Part shown: positions 1,865-4,824 of the stretch, one piece after another
Position numbering within the stretch: the stretch's first letter is position 1
How the letters are laid out: each line of letters opens with the position of its first letter
Source: an uncultured Bacilli bacterium
Lineage (GTDB): Bacteria > Bacillota_I > Bacilli_A > RF39 > UBA660
Direction: 5' to 3'
Length of the DNA: 11,057 bases
Assembly (NCBI GenBank): GCA_947630515.1
Contig: CANRHY010000023.1
Location: 1 to 11,057, forward strand
Notes under the pieces: model-generated
Told to the model about the DNA's origin: nothing
Databases searched by the model: none
The model's input: the letters and a program-made list of their open reading frames with translations, nothing else
Translations under genes and position numbers: made by a program

Positions 1865-1876
1865 TCTAAATGTTTT
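1846..1876. terminator. Bidirectional intrinsic terminator between convergent genes
   Basis: A perfect 12-bp inverted repeat, AAAACATTTAGA (1846-1857) and TCTAAATGTTTT (1865-1876), encloses a 7-nt loop. The stem ends in A/T runs on both sides, so each strand yields a hairpin followed by U residues. It closes the + strand ABC operon, whose TAG stop is in the loop, and the - strand gene 1875-2594, whose TAA stop overlaps the end of the stem. The stem is AT-rich, so strength is uncertain. Confidence 0.8.
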
Positions 1877-2594
1877 ATTCTTTAGGTACTTTTTCCTCTG
1901 GTAAGTATTCACCTTTAGCACTTATTTTTGTTACAAAGTATTTTCCTTGAGCTGCATTATTAGCATCATTTCTTAGCCATGCGTATAAATGGAAAGTTTT
2001 TTCATTATTAGCTTCTATTAATATGTTTTTAGTAAGTATATGTTTTTCAGTTCCTTCTACTTTTTCTATTTGGCCAAATATATTAGTCGTTGGAGTTTCA
2101 ACTCCATCTTCTCCAATTGCTACTTTAATTTGGTCATCATCTACAGCAACGTTATATTTATTTTCAAATTCATAGCCATCTTTACTTGTATTTGTTGTAA
2201 ACTCTAATCCAGAGGTTGTATCTTTTTCTAAATATAGAGTTACATATAATGGTAAAGAGCCTGTATTTTTTAGTTTAAATGTATAAGGGTCTAATGCACT
2301 CCACTCTTCTGGAGTAGTCGGATCTGTTTGTGGATATATTGGTACATAAGAAGTACTTCCATCTTCATTTTTCTTTGTTCCTATAATGTTATCCACATTT
2401 TCTTCTAGTCCTGTATCACAAGTCTCGTCTATACAAAAAGACATAGCTATATTACCAAAAGTTATTGTTTTTGCTTCTCCTTCAGCGTCTACTTTAAAAA
2501 TTGCATATGAAAAAGATATAAATAATAGAACTACTATTAAAACTGTAACTATAGTTATACTAATTTCTCTTTTTATCAATTTTTCTAATTTCAT
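1875..2594 (-). CDS. TasA/camelysin-like SipW-dependent secreted protein, paralogue A
   Basis: A secreted, probably fibre-forming or surface protein of 239 residues. The N-terminus is basic (KLEKLIKRE), followed by a hydrophobic segment at about 11-29 ending in SYA, then IFKVDAEG and the strand TITFGNIAMSF. This layout (small-x-Ala site, an F-x-x-[DN] motif, then a T-F-x-x-G strand) is that of SipW-type signal peptides in TasA and CalY; cleavage after Ala31 is likely. The mature part is hydrophilic and beta-rich, with FKLKNTGSLPLY and LYLEKDTTSGL at about 106-130 and LTKNILIEA and LYAWL near 187-207, close to the TasA/camelysin 'NNGSL' pattern. Cys54 and Cys59 form a C-x4-C pair. The start is ATG 2594, 6 nt after AAAGGTG (2601-2607); the upstream in-frame GTG is part of that ribosome binding site. 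The gene has its own promoter. It is a close paralogue of 2717-3457. Fibre formation is inferred, not seen. Confidence 0.85.
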   Translation of the reverse strand: MKLEKLIKREISITIVTVLIVVLLFISFSYAIFKVDAEGEAKTITFGNIAMSFCIDETCDTGLEENVDNIIGTKKNEDGSTSYVPIYPQTDPTTPEEWSALDPYTFKLKNTGSLPLYVTLYLEKDTTSGLEFTTNTSKDGYEFENKYNVAVDDDQIKVAIGEDGVETPTTNIFGQIEKVEGTEKHILTKNILIEANNEKTFHLYAWLRNDANNAAQGKYFVTKISAKGEYLPEEKVPKE

Positions 2595-2600
2595 TTTATT

Positions 2601-2607
2601 CACCTTT
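2601..2607 (-). promoter_or_regulatory. Shine-Dalgarno deciding the start of paralogue A
   Basis: On the - strand this reads AAAGGTG, 6 nt before ATG 2594. Its last three bases are an in-frame GTG that lengthens the open frame by three codons; as part of the ribosome binding site it is unlikely to be the start. Confidence 0.8.
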
Positions 2608-2630
2608 TGGTTTTTTATCCTACAATTATT

Positions 2631-2659
2631 ATTTTAACTTATTTTTTAGATTTAATCAA
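2631..2659 (-). promoter_or_regulatory. Sigma-A-type promoter of paralogue A
   Basis: Read on the - strand: -35 TTGATT (2654-2659), 17-bp spacer, -10 TAAAAT (2631-2636), with the start codon 36 nt beyond the -10 box. It aligns base for base in spacing with the promoter of the neighbouring paralogue (3484-3512). Confidence 0.75.
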
Positions 2660-2682
2660 GGCTTAGTATTAGTATTTAACAA

Positions 2683-2711
2683 AAAAATTTAGATTTTTGG
2701 TCTAAATTTTT
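2683..2711 (-). terminator. Intrinsic terminator of paralogue B
   Basis: An 11-bp inverted repeat AAAAATTTAGA / TCTAAATTTTT with a 7-nt loop lies just after the TAA of the gene ending at 2717. On the - strand it runs into further U residues. The arms (TTTAGA / TCTAAA) are the same as in the terminator of paralogue A at 1846-1876, in keeping with duplication of the whole unit. Confidence 0.75.
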
Positions 2712-2716
2712 AATTT

Positions 2717-3457
2717 TTATCCATTTTCTGAAGTTGGCTTTAATTCTTCTGGTAAGTATTCTCCTCTTGCGCTTATTTTTGTTACAAAATATTTTCCTTG
2801 AGCAGAATTTTCTGCGTCTTCTTTTAGCCATGCATATAATTTAAATGTTTTTTCTCCATGAGCTTCTATTAGTATATTTTTTGTAAGTATGTGTTTTGTT
2901 TCATTTCCAATTTCTTCAGCTGTTTCGTTATATGTTTTAATTGTAGGTGAAATGTATTCACCTTCAACTGTTTCTCCAATTGCTATTTTAATTTGGTCGT
3001 CATTTACTGGAGTATTATATTCAACTGTCGTAGATTCGAAGCCTTCTTCACTTCCAGTATTGTAAGTGTAACTTAATCCAGAAGTTGTATCTTTTTCTAA
3101 ATATAGGGTTATATATAAAGATAAGGAACCTGTATTTTTAAGTTTAAATATATATGGGTCTAATGCATTCCATTCTTCAGTTGTGCTTGGGTCTTTTTGT
3201 GGATATATTGGAACATATTGAGTTTCTCCATTAACTAATTTTTTACCTATTACATTATCTACATTATCTATTGCTTCATCACATTGTTCATTTACACAAA
3301 ATGAAAGGGCTATATCTCCAAATGTTATTGTATTAGGTGTTCCTTCTGCGTCTACTTTAAATATTGCATAAGAAAAGGCTGTAAAAAGTATTGCTACTAA
3401 GATTACGGTAACTATAGTTATACTAATTTCGCGTTTAATTAATCCTTCTAATTTCAT
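2717..3457 (-). CDS. TasA/camelysin-like SipW-dependent secreted protein, paralogue B
   Basis: A protein of 246 residues with the same architecture as its neighbour 1875-2594: basic N-terminus, hydrophobic segment at about 11-29, SYA cleavage site (likely after Ala31), IFKVDAEG, the strand TITFGDIALSF, and C-x4-C at Cys54/Cys59. Shared blocks include YVPIYPQ, FKLKNTGSL, LYLEKDTTSGL, DDQIK-[IV]-AIGE, LTKNILIEA and AQGKYFVTKISA. The main differences are a longer insert at about residues 160-187 and a different C-terminal tail (PTSENG). The start is ATG 3457, 6 nt after AAAGGTG at 3464-3470; the in-frame GTG inside that motif is rejected. It has its own promoter and terminator. By family it should be exported and processed by the signal peptidase at 4155-4775, then assembled or displayed outside the cell. 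Whether A and B co-assemble or are alternatives cannot be told. Confidence 0.85.
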   Translation of the reverse strand: MKLEGLIKREISITIVTVILVAILFTAFSYAIFKVDAEGTPNTITFGDIALSFCVNEQCDEAIDNVDNVIGKKLVNGETQYVPIYPQKDPSTTEEWNALDPYIFKLKNTGSLSLYITLYLEKDTTSGLSYTYNTGSEEGFESTTVEYNTPVNDDQIKIAIGETVEGEYISPTIKTYNETAEEIGNETKHILTKNILIEAHGEKTFKLYAWLKEDAENSAQGKYFVTKISARGEYLPEELKPTSENG

Positions 3458-3463
3458 ACTCTT

Positions 3464-3470
3464 CACCTTT
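3464..3470 (-). promoter_or_regulatory. Shine-Dalgarno deciding the start of paralogue B
   Basis: AAAGGTG on the - strand, 6 nt before ATG 3457. The GTG at its end is in frame three codons upstream and explains the longer open frame, exactly as in paralogue A. Confidence 0.8.
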
Positions 3471-3483
3471 ATATCTTATATAT

Positions 3484-3512
3484 ATTTTAACCCATTTTAT
3501 AAGTTTTATCAA
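3484..3512 (-). promoter_or_regulatory. Sigma-A-type promoter of paralogue B
   Basis: On the - strand: -35 TTGATA (3507-3512), 17-bp spacer, -10 TAAAAT (3484-3489). The -10 box is 26 nt from ATG 3457, so the leader is very short and contains little beyond the ribosome binding site. Confidence 0.75.
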
Positions 3513-3520
3513 GATTAAAA

Positions 3521-3549
3521 GAAAAAATATAGAATAACTATATTTCTTC
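3521..3549 (-). terminator. Intrinsic terminator overlapping the end of the 175-aa gene
   Basis: On the - strand GAAGAAATATAG pairs with CTATATTTTTTC (one G-U pair) around a 5-nt loop and is followed by more U residues. The left arm contains the last three codons and the TAG stop of 3538-4065, so the hairpin is partly coding. Confidence 0.65.
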
Positions 3550-4065
3550 AACTAAAAAGTCTATATCTAAAGTTTTATTTAATTCTTCTTCTGTTGTGTT
3601 TTCATCTAAGTATAAGTGTAGTTTATGTGTATTTATAGTATAAGGTTTTATTTTATCTGTAGTTATTACATAATATGTGCTTGCCCCTTTTGTAAATTTA
3701 TCTAAGTCTTTTAATTTTAATATTTTATTATCTATATTTATTTTTATGTTATTATCTTTTAATGTGCTATTTATGTTGTATTTTAAATAAAGTGTGTACT
3801 CTTTTTTCATATTGATATTATTGTTTACTTTTAGAGTTATTGTATTTTTATTATATGTATTTTTGTCTTTTTCTATAGCAATGGAACCAAGGCTACTATT
3901 AACATCTAATTCTAGTTTTTCGTCTAAGTGTGAATATGCGTATGCTATATCTCCATATTTTTTAGCGTCTGTTTTTAGAAATATTACAAATGACACCATG
4001 ATAAATATTAATATAAAAATTATCTCACAATATAATTTTATTATTTGATTATGAATTTTTTTCAC
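3538..4065 (-). CDS. Divergent TasA-like membrane/secreted protein, possible anchor or minor subunit
   Basis: A protein of 175 residues of no named family that I recognise. It has a membrane segment at about 13-30 and then an extracellular-type hydrophilic, Lys/Asn-rich, beta-rich domain. Aligned by eye with the two paralogues downstream it keeps their landmarks: SFVIFLKTDA against SYAIFKVDA, YGDIAYAYS against FGDIALSF, ITLKVNNNINMKKEYTLYL against FKLKNTGSL..YITLYL, IKINI against IKIAI, and HLYL against KLYAWL near the end. It lacks the C-x4-C pair and has Val instead of Ala at the expected cleavage position. It may therefore stay in the membrane, or be cut later at AYA (41-43). The start is GTG, since the next Met is residue 23, inside the membrane segment; GGGGG lies 9 nt upstream. 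It has its own near-consensus promoter. A TapA-like anchoring role is inference from context only. Confidence 0.75.
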   Translation of the reverse strand: MKKIHNQIIKLYCEIIFILIFIMVSFVIFLKTDAKKYGDIAYAYSHLDEKLELDVNSSLGSIAIEKDKNTYNKNTITLKVNNNINMKKEYTLYLKYNINSTLKDNNIKINIDNKILKLKDLDKFTKGASTYYVITTDKIKPYTINTHKLHLYLDENTTEEELNKTLDIDFLVEEI

Positions 4066-4092
4066 AACCTATACCCCCTTAAAACTAATATA

Positions 4093-4121
4093 ATTGTACC
4101 ATAAAAAGTCTTTTTTGTCAA
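4093..4121 (-). promoter_or_regulatory. Near-consensus promoter with extended -10, 175-aa gene
   Basis: On the - strand: TTGACA (4116-4121), 17-bp spacer, TACAAT (4093-4098), preceded by TGG, which makes an extended -10. The -35 box is a perfect consensus, making this the strongest-looking promoter in the window. It sits about 30 bp upstream of the GTG start. Confidence 0.85.
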
Positions 4122-4141
4122 GTTTTCTTCCTTTTTAAAAT

Positions 4142-4167
4142 AAAAAAACACCATTTAGTGTTTCTTT
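4142..4167 (-). terminator. Intrinsic terminator overlapping the end of sipW
   Basis: On the - strand AAAGAAACAC pairs with GTGTTTTTTT (6-bp core AAACAC/GTGTTT plus a G-U and A-U extension) around a 6-nt loop, and U residues follow. The TAA stop of 4155-4775 falls at the stem/loop boundary. The -35 box of the next gene begins only 21 bp downstream. Confidence 0.75.
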
Positions 4168-4775
4168 AATTTTTTATCTTCTTCTTCAATTTCGTGTGCT
4201 TCTTCTATTTTATTTTTTACTTTAATTAATTTTAATAGTTTTACTATATCATATGCAACTATACCTAATGCTGGAATTAATATTACTATGAACCAACCTC
4301 CTCGACTAGCTAAGAAGAATTGTATTCTTCCAAGTTGAGGAATTTTAAATCTTACTGTTCCTATTACACTACTAGAAGCAATGATTTCGTCATCTACTGA
4401 TTGATTTGCGTCTCCTTTTGTTCTGAATGTTATTCCATTATTAGTTGTAAACTTTTCAACTACTCTGTGTGTTACTGGAGTATGACCTAAACTTTTTTTA
4501 GTACTATAATAAGAGATTATGTCACCTACTTCTATATCTTCTGGATCTTTACGTACCACAAATACTACGTCATATACTTTTATTTTTGGTTCCATGCTTC
4601 CACTTATTATTGTGTATAGCCCAAGTGGGGGATTTTTTCCTTTAATCTCTGCTACTTTGTTTATTCCAATATAGGTAATTAAAAAACCTGCAATGGTAAG
4701 TAGTATTGCCATTACACCCCAAGATATAAGTTTCATTATAAAATTGAATAACTTAAACCCGTCTTTATTCTTCAT
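4155..4775 (-). CDS. sipW: SipW-type (ER-type) signal peptidase I
   Basis: A membrane serine protease of the S26B branch that removes signal peptides from SipW-dependent exported proteins; 206 residues, near the usual size. The nucleophile is Ser60 in SGSMEP (58-63). The general base is His103 in VTHRVV, where bacterial SipS-type enzymes have lysine, which identifies the archaeal/ER branch. Asp122 in TKGDAN and the acidic VDD at 127-129 complete the conserved boxes. Membrane segments lie at about 15-37 and 161-180, so the catalytic domain faces outside and a charged tail (EEAHEIEEEDKKLKKH) lies in the cytoplasm. The start is ATG 4775, 5 nt after GTAGGTG. It has its own promoter and terminator. 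The natural clients are the three membrane-segment proteins encoded directly downstream (3538-4065, 2717-3457, 1875-2594), as in Bacillus tapA-sipW-tasA. Confidence 0.93.
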   Translation of the reverse strand: MKNKDGFKLFNFIMKLISWGVMAILLTIAGFLITYIGINKVAEIKGKNPPLGLYTIISGSMEPKIKVYDVVFVVRKDPEDIEVGDIISYYSTKKSLGHTPVTHRVVEKFTTNNGITFRTKGDANQSVDDEIIASSSVIGTVRFKIPQLGRIQFFLASRGGWFIVILIPALGIVAYDIVKLLKLIKVKNKIEEAHEIEEEDKKLKKH

Positions 4776-4795
4776 ATTTTCACCTACTATTATTA

Positions 4796-4824
4796 ATTAT
4801 AATAAAATTTTTGATTTTATACAA
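4796..4824 (-). promoter_or_regulatory. Sigma-A-type promoter of sipW
   Basis: On the - strand: -35 TTGTAT (4819-4824), 17-bp spacer, -10 TATAAT (4796-4801, perfect consensus). The -10 lies 20 nt before ATG 4775. Confidence 0.75.

Follow-up and report, generated by a model that had tools for sequence, protein, structure and literature searches.

The 11,057-nucleotide stretch of contig CANRHY010000023.1 considered here (the window) comes from the genome, 74% complete, of an uncultured Bacilli bacterium and carries on its minus strand, in this order, queH, a sipW-like signal peptidase gene, a small gene that we call w5 and two TasA-like genes, clients A and B. We think it likely that a SipW/TasA-like surface system has its core locus in the window, the same peptidase also handling dispersed proteins with a TasA-like N-terminal domain (N-domain) and lectins rewritten by a diversity-generating retroelement (DGR). 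The locus exists and is conserved; its layout, and probably its function too, is TasA-like. The original prediction, made from the window alone, had proposed a SipW/TasA-like matrix locus with three clients; its observations were borne out in part, and its interpretation was partly supported.

The distribution of the N-domain was compared with that of SipW in 98 genomes of the family, from 97 genera. The N-domain was found in 45/98, SipW (E <= 1e-25) in 50/98 and both in 42, such that SipW is present in 42 of the 45 genomes with the N-domain against 8 of the 53 without it (p 5e-16); this SipW cut-off was chosen after the data had been seen, and the four that were tried, from 1e-8 to 1e-30, gave p values from 2.4e-5 to 2.4e-18. 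By contrast, the DGR enzyme (28/98 at E <= 1e-40) showed no link with SipW or with the N-domain across the same genomes (p 0.79 and 0.66); at the SipW cut-off of 1e-25, SipW was present in 13/28 genomes with the enzyme and in 37/70 without it (p 0.66). SipW therefore tracks the TasA-like N-domains, to which some genera, that of the window included, add hypermutation. From the same co-occurrence, SipW probably serves both the TasA-like subunits and the hypermutated lectins.

The genes of the locus and the promoter-like blocks before them are as follows:

4155..4775, minus strand: sipW-like endoplasmic reticulum (ER)-type signal peptidase I, 206 amino acids, with Ser60, His103 and Asp122.
4796..4824, minus strand: promoter-like block of sipW, TTGTAT-17-TATAAT, identical before sipW in 7/7 sequences.
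3538..4065, minus strand: w5, 175 amino acids, with an N-terminal hydrophobic helix (2-31) and then, in the model, a small beta-sandwich.
4093..4121, minus strand: promoter-like block of w5, TTGACA-17-TACAAT, consensus 11/12.
2717..3457, minus strand: client A, TasA-like, 246 amino acids, with the signal segment 'FSYAIFK' and a beta-sandwich model.
3484..3512, minus strand: promoter-like block of client A, TTGATA-17-TAAAAT, kept in 5/5 other genus members.
1875..2594, minus strand: client B, TasA-like, 239 amino acids, 67% identical to client A and its tandem paralogue.
2631..2659, minus strand: promoter-like block of client B, TTGATT-17-TAAAAT, a consensus match.

For both clients the start codon was taken as ATG, as a GTG nine bases earlier overlaps the likely ribosome-binding site. 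Judged by consensus matches, TTGATA-17-TAAAAT lies upstream of the tasA-like gene in 6/7 places, client B being the one that differs (TTGATT); a script scan found a promoter-like block upstream of w5 in 5/7 homologous places, and the block upstream of sipW was read by eye and scores below the script's own cut-off. Since a conserved promoter-like block precedes every one of the four genes, they probably form a cluster of separate transcription units and not a single operon.

Within the genus, studied through nine genomes (our own, G000, and G001 to G008), SipW is present in our own and in 7/8 others (27/40 of all genomes searched, our own included), and queH adjoins sipW in all eight SipW-bearing members, with an insertion between them in G001 that contains a template-like copy and a lectin gene's 3' end. 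The sipW-w5-tasA-like order is complete in our own genome, G001, G002, G003, G006 and G007; a neighbourhood survey, one of the checks proposed with the original prediction, thus found queH-sipW-w5-tasA-like kept in all six genomes with spanning contigs. The contigs of G004 and G005 end before the order is completed, and that of G008, a genome in which no sipW was found, begins at the tasA-like gene.

The peptidase matches TIGR02228 well above the cut-off (98.3 bits against 51.85) and has Ser60, His103 and Asp122 in place of Ser-Lys, a triad which we take to be of ER type, as originally assigned. With 85.2 bits it falls below the cut-off (190) of NF046067, the Bacillus SipW equivalog, and is therefore filed as an ER-type peptidase and not as that equivalog. 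The solved chains that it matched are SEC11A and SEC11C, and its identity within the genus is 65-71%. Other sipW genes were seen in different settings: a second one in G002 (locus L205, contig C66, 81-4121), 44% identical, adjoins a protein of 1061 amino acids, and in G019 and G020 the neighbour of a sipW is likewise a long protein, one that has a hydrophobic segment. Three large loci (L037, L038 and L039, of G013, G010 and G024) each hold two or three SipW-matching genes, together with proteins of about 510 and 380 amino acids that look conserved and many short signal-segment proteins, and are possibly another multi-gene surface system.

The N-domain was met through client A, a search with which gave a weak match (E 8e-4) at the N-terminus of a 561-amino-acid frame elsewhere in the genome. 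The N-domain of that frame gave 23 own-genome matches at E <= 1, including client A (0.0018) and client B (0.013), and an hhalign comparison of 12 N-domains with an alignment of 58 clients and relatives gave a probability of 90% (E 1.4e-6); on these sequence comparisons, the N-domains are homologous to the clients. With the profile of the 12 N-domains there are, at E <= 0.001, 27 matches in our own genome and 15, 30, 1, 31, 13, 4, 7 and 12 in G001 to G008, or 140 in total; pieces of single genes are included in these counts, in the 23 matches above and in the match counts of the family-wide survey. Our own genome has 26 distinct frames with the N-domain at E <= 1e-5, a count that covers the fetched stretches with three duplicates dropped: 14 also carry lectin motifs, 9 stand alone and 3 are cut by contig ends. 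Nine further frames have lectin motifs only, and eight of these start at a contig end. Tandem arrays of the stand-alone copies are found at a second locus conserved in the genus (L202, L203, L204, L206 and L208, on G000:C12, G000:C17, G002:C4, G001:C13 and G004:C22); the proteins there have about 200-280 amino acids, many beginning 'MGDNRGQTIFLSVIGIATLLV', and in 3/5 stretches the array lies beside a protein of 580-980 amino acids.

A search for lectin relatives scored 7995 candidates, 1098 of them at E <= 1e-10, and 120 were listed. Among those listed, P0104, P0109, P0110 and P0135 match PF12389 (TasA/camelysin) above the cut-off at residues 1-75, the first three with a C-terminal DUF6273 also above the cut-off, and P0135 reaches TIGR04088, the SipW-type signal peptide. 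The single full-length lectin of our own genome that was tested matched neither PF12389 nor DUF6273, our own lectin P0085 had no TIGR04088 match, and one target in G002 scored 19.9 for DUF6273, below the cut-off of 23.5.

The lectin ends carry the marks of a DGR. The 'WWTMSP...RPVVSLKSC' ends vary in NNC/NNT codons in a fixed frame in 5/12 lectins, the other seven ends lying outside the template frame (older or other copies), and third-base C reaches 40% in the variable part of all 12, against 9% across genes. A variable-repeat (VR) pattern, with the non-adenine letters fixed and at most two mismatches, occurs at 13 places in our own genome and in 5/9 genus genomes, with zero in the reversed control. 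The template is an intergenic place on contig C37, upstream of a helicase-like gene (recD2 by eye), and its core variable codons are all AAC. Compared with the 84-base template core, 11 copies, each on a contig of its own, differ at 168/297 adenines and at 16/627 other bases (Fisher 3e-81, for sites that are not independent and copies that were selected by the pattern); up to 16 non-adenine mismatches were allowed for listing a VR, and the 11 copies had 0-3. A twelfth non-template pattern match, on C88, failed without gaps and was left out. The N-terminal part is visible in five of the 11 VR genes, and all five have the N-domain, partly deleted in one; the other six run off the contig. In G002, three copies differ from the purest template-like copy at 12-13/27 adenines and 0-3/71 other bases, and a fourth (L150) fits poorly, with 16/27 and 14/71.

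A cassette of an Avd-like gene, a reverse transcriptase (RT) with LPIGNMTSQ and a third gene was found in G001-G004, G006 and G008 (6/9 genus genomes); the RT motif GxxxSQ is, we assume, of DGR type. The cassette of G004 was taken for the family tests, where RVT_1 is above its cut-off and the Avd-like gene is below those of NF033474 (6.7e-8) and PF22296 (2.9e-7). The third gene is MutS domain I-like in G004 (L184, 2142-2552; PF01624, 25.8 bits, cut-off 20.6), the one genome in which it was tested for families, and a gene matching it also follows the RT in L180-L183 and L185. The DGR RT was not found in our own assembly. The sole RT found there (G000:C28, 8272-9558, L112) was rejected as the DGR enzyme: it has TPQGG and YADD, is followed by a domain-V-like stretch and is presumably that of a group II intron, and it lies where an mnmE-like gene begins (names by eye). 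Apparently non-coding arrays of template-like copies, about 300-570 bases apart and with ends unlike those of the coding VRs, were seen in L148 (G001:C6, 4085-7850; at least nine copies), L147 (G001:C12, 3151-4409; at least five) and L149 (G002:C45, 3743-6189; at least six). One template-like copy of G002 differs from the purest at 7/27 adenines and 0/71 other bases, as if templates were themselves rewritten.

The window could instead hold a plain SipW/TasA matrix cluster, the DGR lectins being an unrelated surface system that shares with it a common export signal only. This has in its favour the independence of the DGR from both SipW and the N-domain across the family and the position of clients A and B at the edge of the N-domain search; we nevertheless judge it rather unlikely, given the hhalign result, the strong co-occurrence of N-domain and SipW and the lectin-gene end and template-like copy lying between queH and sipW in G001.

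The third client of the original prediction is less secure than the other two. The identity of w5 to its genus homologues is 27-40%, against 65-71% for SipW, which indicates fast divergence, and a search of 5.8 billion proteins returned one relative besides itself among the matches listed. No Pfam or NCBIfam match was above the cut-off, the rows of the structure comparison were tied with unrelated sandwiches, and hhalign against the clients gave a probability of 14.5%. That w5 is a third, structural client and not a helper or anchor seems doubtful to us, as it lacks a TasA-type signal site and shows no conservation of a cleavage site next to the hydrophobic helix, besides diverging fast and matching the client profile weakly. 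By analogy with CapP or TapA, in role and not in homology, we propose for w5 the part of an assembly helper or membrane anchor; TapA and CapP are absent among the listed matches of w5, which, no direct comparison having been made, excludes nothing. Two tandem TasA-like genes thus stand from the predicted set of two major subunits and one divergent member, A and B being paralogues and w5 a fast-evolving and doubtful third client.

For clients A and B no Pfam or NCBIfam model scored above its cut-off. Client A reaches 12 bits against PF12389 (gathering score 22.5) and client B has no match to it, and they are therefore called TasA-like and not filed as members; the TIGR04088 search suggested with the original prediction matched neither, and a PDB sequence search with the clients gave nothing convincing. 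Structure prediction, another of the suggested checks, gave a mixed answer: the top row for the client A model is the filament form of TasA, with the archaeal bundling pili (7ueg) among the matches listed, but Foldseek with the client A and w5 models had no match at E <= 0.001. In an alignment (A1) of 58 of a set of 82 clients and relatives, the conserved parts include the residues that follow the signal site, with G47 invariant, and in a tree of 35 of the same 82 proteins clients A and B are sisters (support 95/84). Each of the five other spanning genomes has one tasA-like gene at the locus, and the pair is, on these sequence grounds, a lineage duplication, not a very young one because of the 67% identity. 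Some client relatives (P0080-P0082, and P0076 by eye) have a dockerin-like insert after the TasA-like part, annotated beforehand as PF00404 in P0080-P0082. Clients A and B might also be monomeric camelysin-like surface proteins or surface-layer pieces and not fibre subunits, which we regard as unlikely in view of the filament form and bundling pili among the structural matches and of the conserved stretch after the signal site.

We infer cleavage, fibre assembly, the role of w5 and lectin display at the fibre, either on it or next to it, along the following lines. SipW would remove the signal segment of clients A and B after Sec export, and the freed N-terminal strand (the 'ITFGDIALSF' region) would probably insert into the next subunit, as in TasA, to give fibres, with w5 most likely staying in the membrane to nucleate, cap or anchor them. 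The same SipW would probably process the 26 dispersed frames with a related signal segment and TasA-like N-domain, 14 of which have a recognisable lectin-like (DUF6273-like) domain attached at the C-terminus. Eleven lectin ends are rewritten copies of one DGR template. A bolder version, a hypermutable fibre in which the clients form the filament and SipW-processed DGR lectins are inserted by donor-strand exchange for an antibody-like display of rewritten tips, is at present a long shot. Cleavage of the lectins by canonical signal peptidase I and not by SipW appears improbable, for although the canonical enzyme is above the cut-off in 8/9 genus genomes and P0085 lacks a TIGR04088 match, one relative reaches TIGR04088, four reach PF12389, and the N-domain tracks SipW across genera, the canonical enzyme having been surveyed within the genus.

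The nearest known systems are those of Bacillus. The tapA-sipW-tasA operon of B. subtilis, with its donor-strand filaments and the role of TapA (excerpts of PMC9674648 and PMC10151520), shares with the window an ER-type SipW, a minor partner and a client with a TasA-like beta-sandwich (here in the model), whereas here there is probably no single operon, no recognisable tapA, another gene order and a second client by lineage duplication. In the sipW-tasA, capP (bc1280) and calY region of B. cereus, as far as excerpts of PMC4292775 and PMC13082335 describe it, there are likewise a SipW, two TasA-type paralogues (61% identity there, 67% here) and one extra gene, with no single transcript for all genes (judged here from the promoter-like blocks). 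It differs in that the extra gene of the window lies directly after sipW and is small, with no link to CapP found (no direct comparison having been made), that all four genes here have a promoter-like block before them, that the neighbours are typA-queH and that the sequences are far divergent. The B. cereus layout is closer to that of the window than the B. subtilis one, and the locus resembles it more than had been thought. Archaeal bundling pili, listed for client A, are filaments structurally related to TasA (excerpt of PMC9674648).

DGRs with C-type-lectin targets are known (excerpts of PMC8144416 and PMC10743442; targets also in PMC4159848), DUF6273 has been reported to be C-lectin-like in the targets of phage DGRs, and as many as eight targets are given for Treponema denticola and Stenotrophomonas (both from excerpts of PMC10743442, the tentaclin paper); in the 24 main target clusters, 71% of sequences have no known domain outside the variable region (excerpt of PMC8144416). 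The elements described here have the same RT with GxxxSQ, Avd-like gene, template and VRs with adenine-biased changes and C-terminal VR, but the targets carry a TasA/camelysin-like N-domain, there are at least 11 target genes in an incomplete genome, and template-like arrays lie either on a different contig from the RT or at a distance of about 24 kb. In the partial library searched no paper joining a DGR with SipW, TasA or camelysin was found, and the passage on a DGR and a signal peptidase that was examined concerns signal peptidase II. What is new is the setting: a specialised peptidase with many candidate TasA-domain clients, many of them lectin-tipped and at least 11 DGR-rewritten. It would link SipW/TasA matrix biology with targeted protein hypermutation and suggest, in a form that can be tested, how some lectins of DGRs get to the surface of the cell. 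SipW, until now part of a small cluster of biofilm genes, would become the enzyme of an export route that has tens of candidate clients in genomes of about 1 Mb, and this single route may supply fibres as well as a set of binding proteins that keeps changing.

Rfam at gathering scores and a tRNA scan gave no match in the window. The remainder of interest is at 3-1864 on the plus strand, where convergent ATP-binding cassette (ABC) transporter genes (an ATPase, a permease and, by eye, the end of a binding protein) were seen, and these stay near the locus in several genus members.
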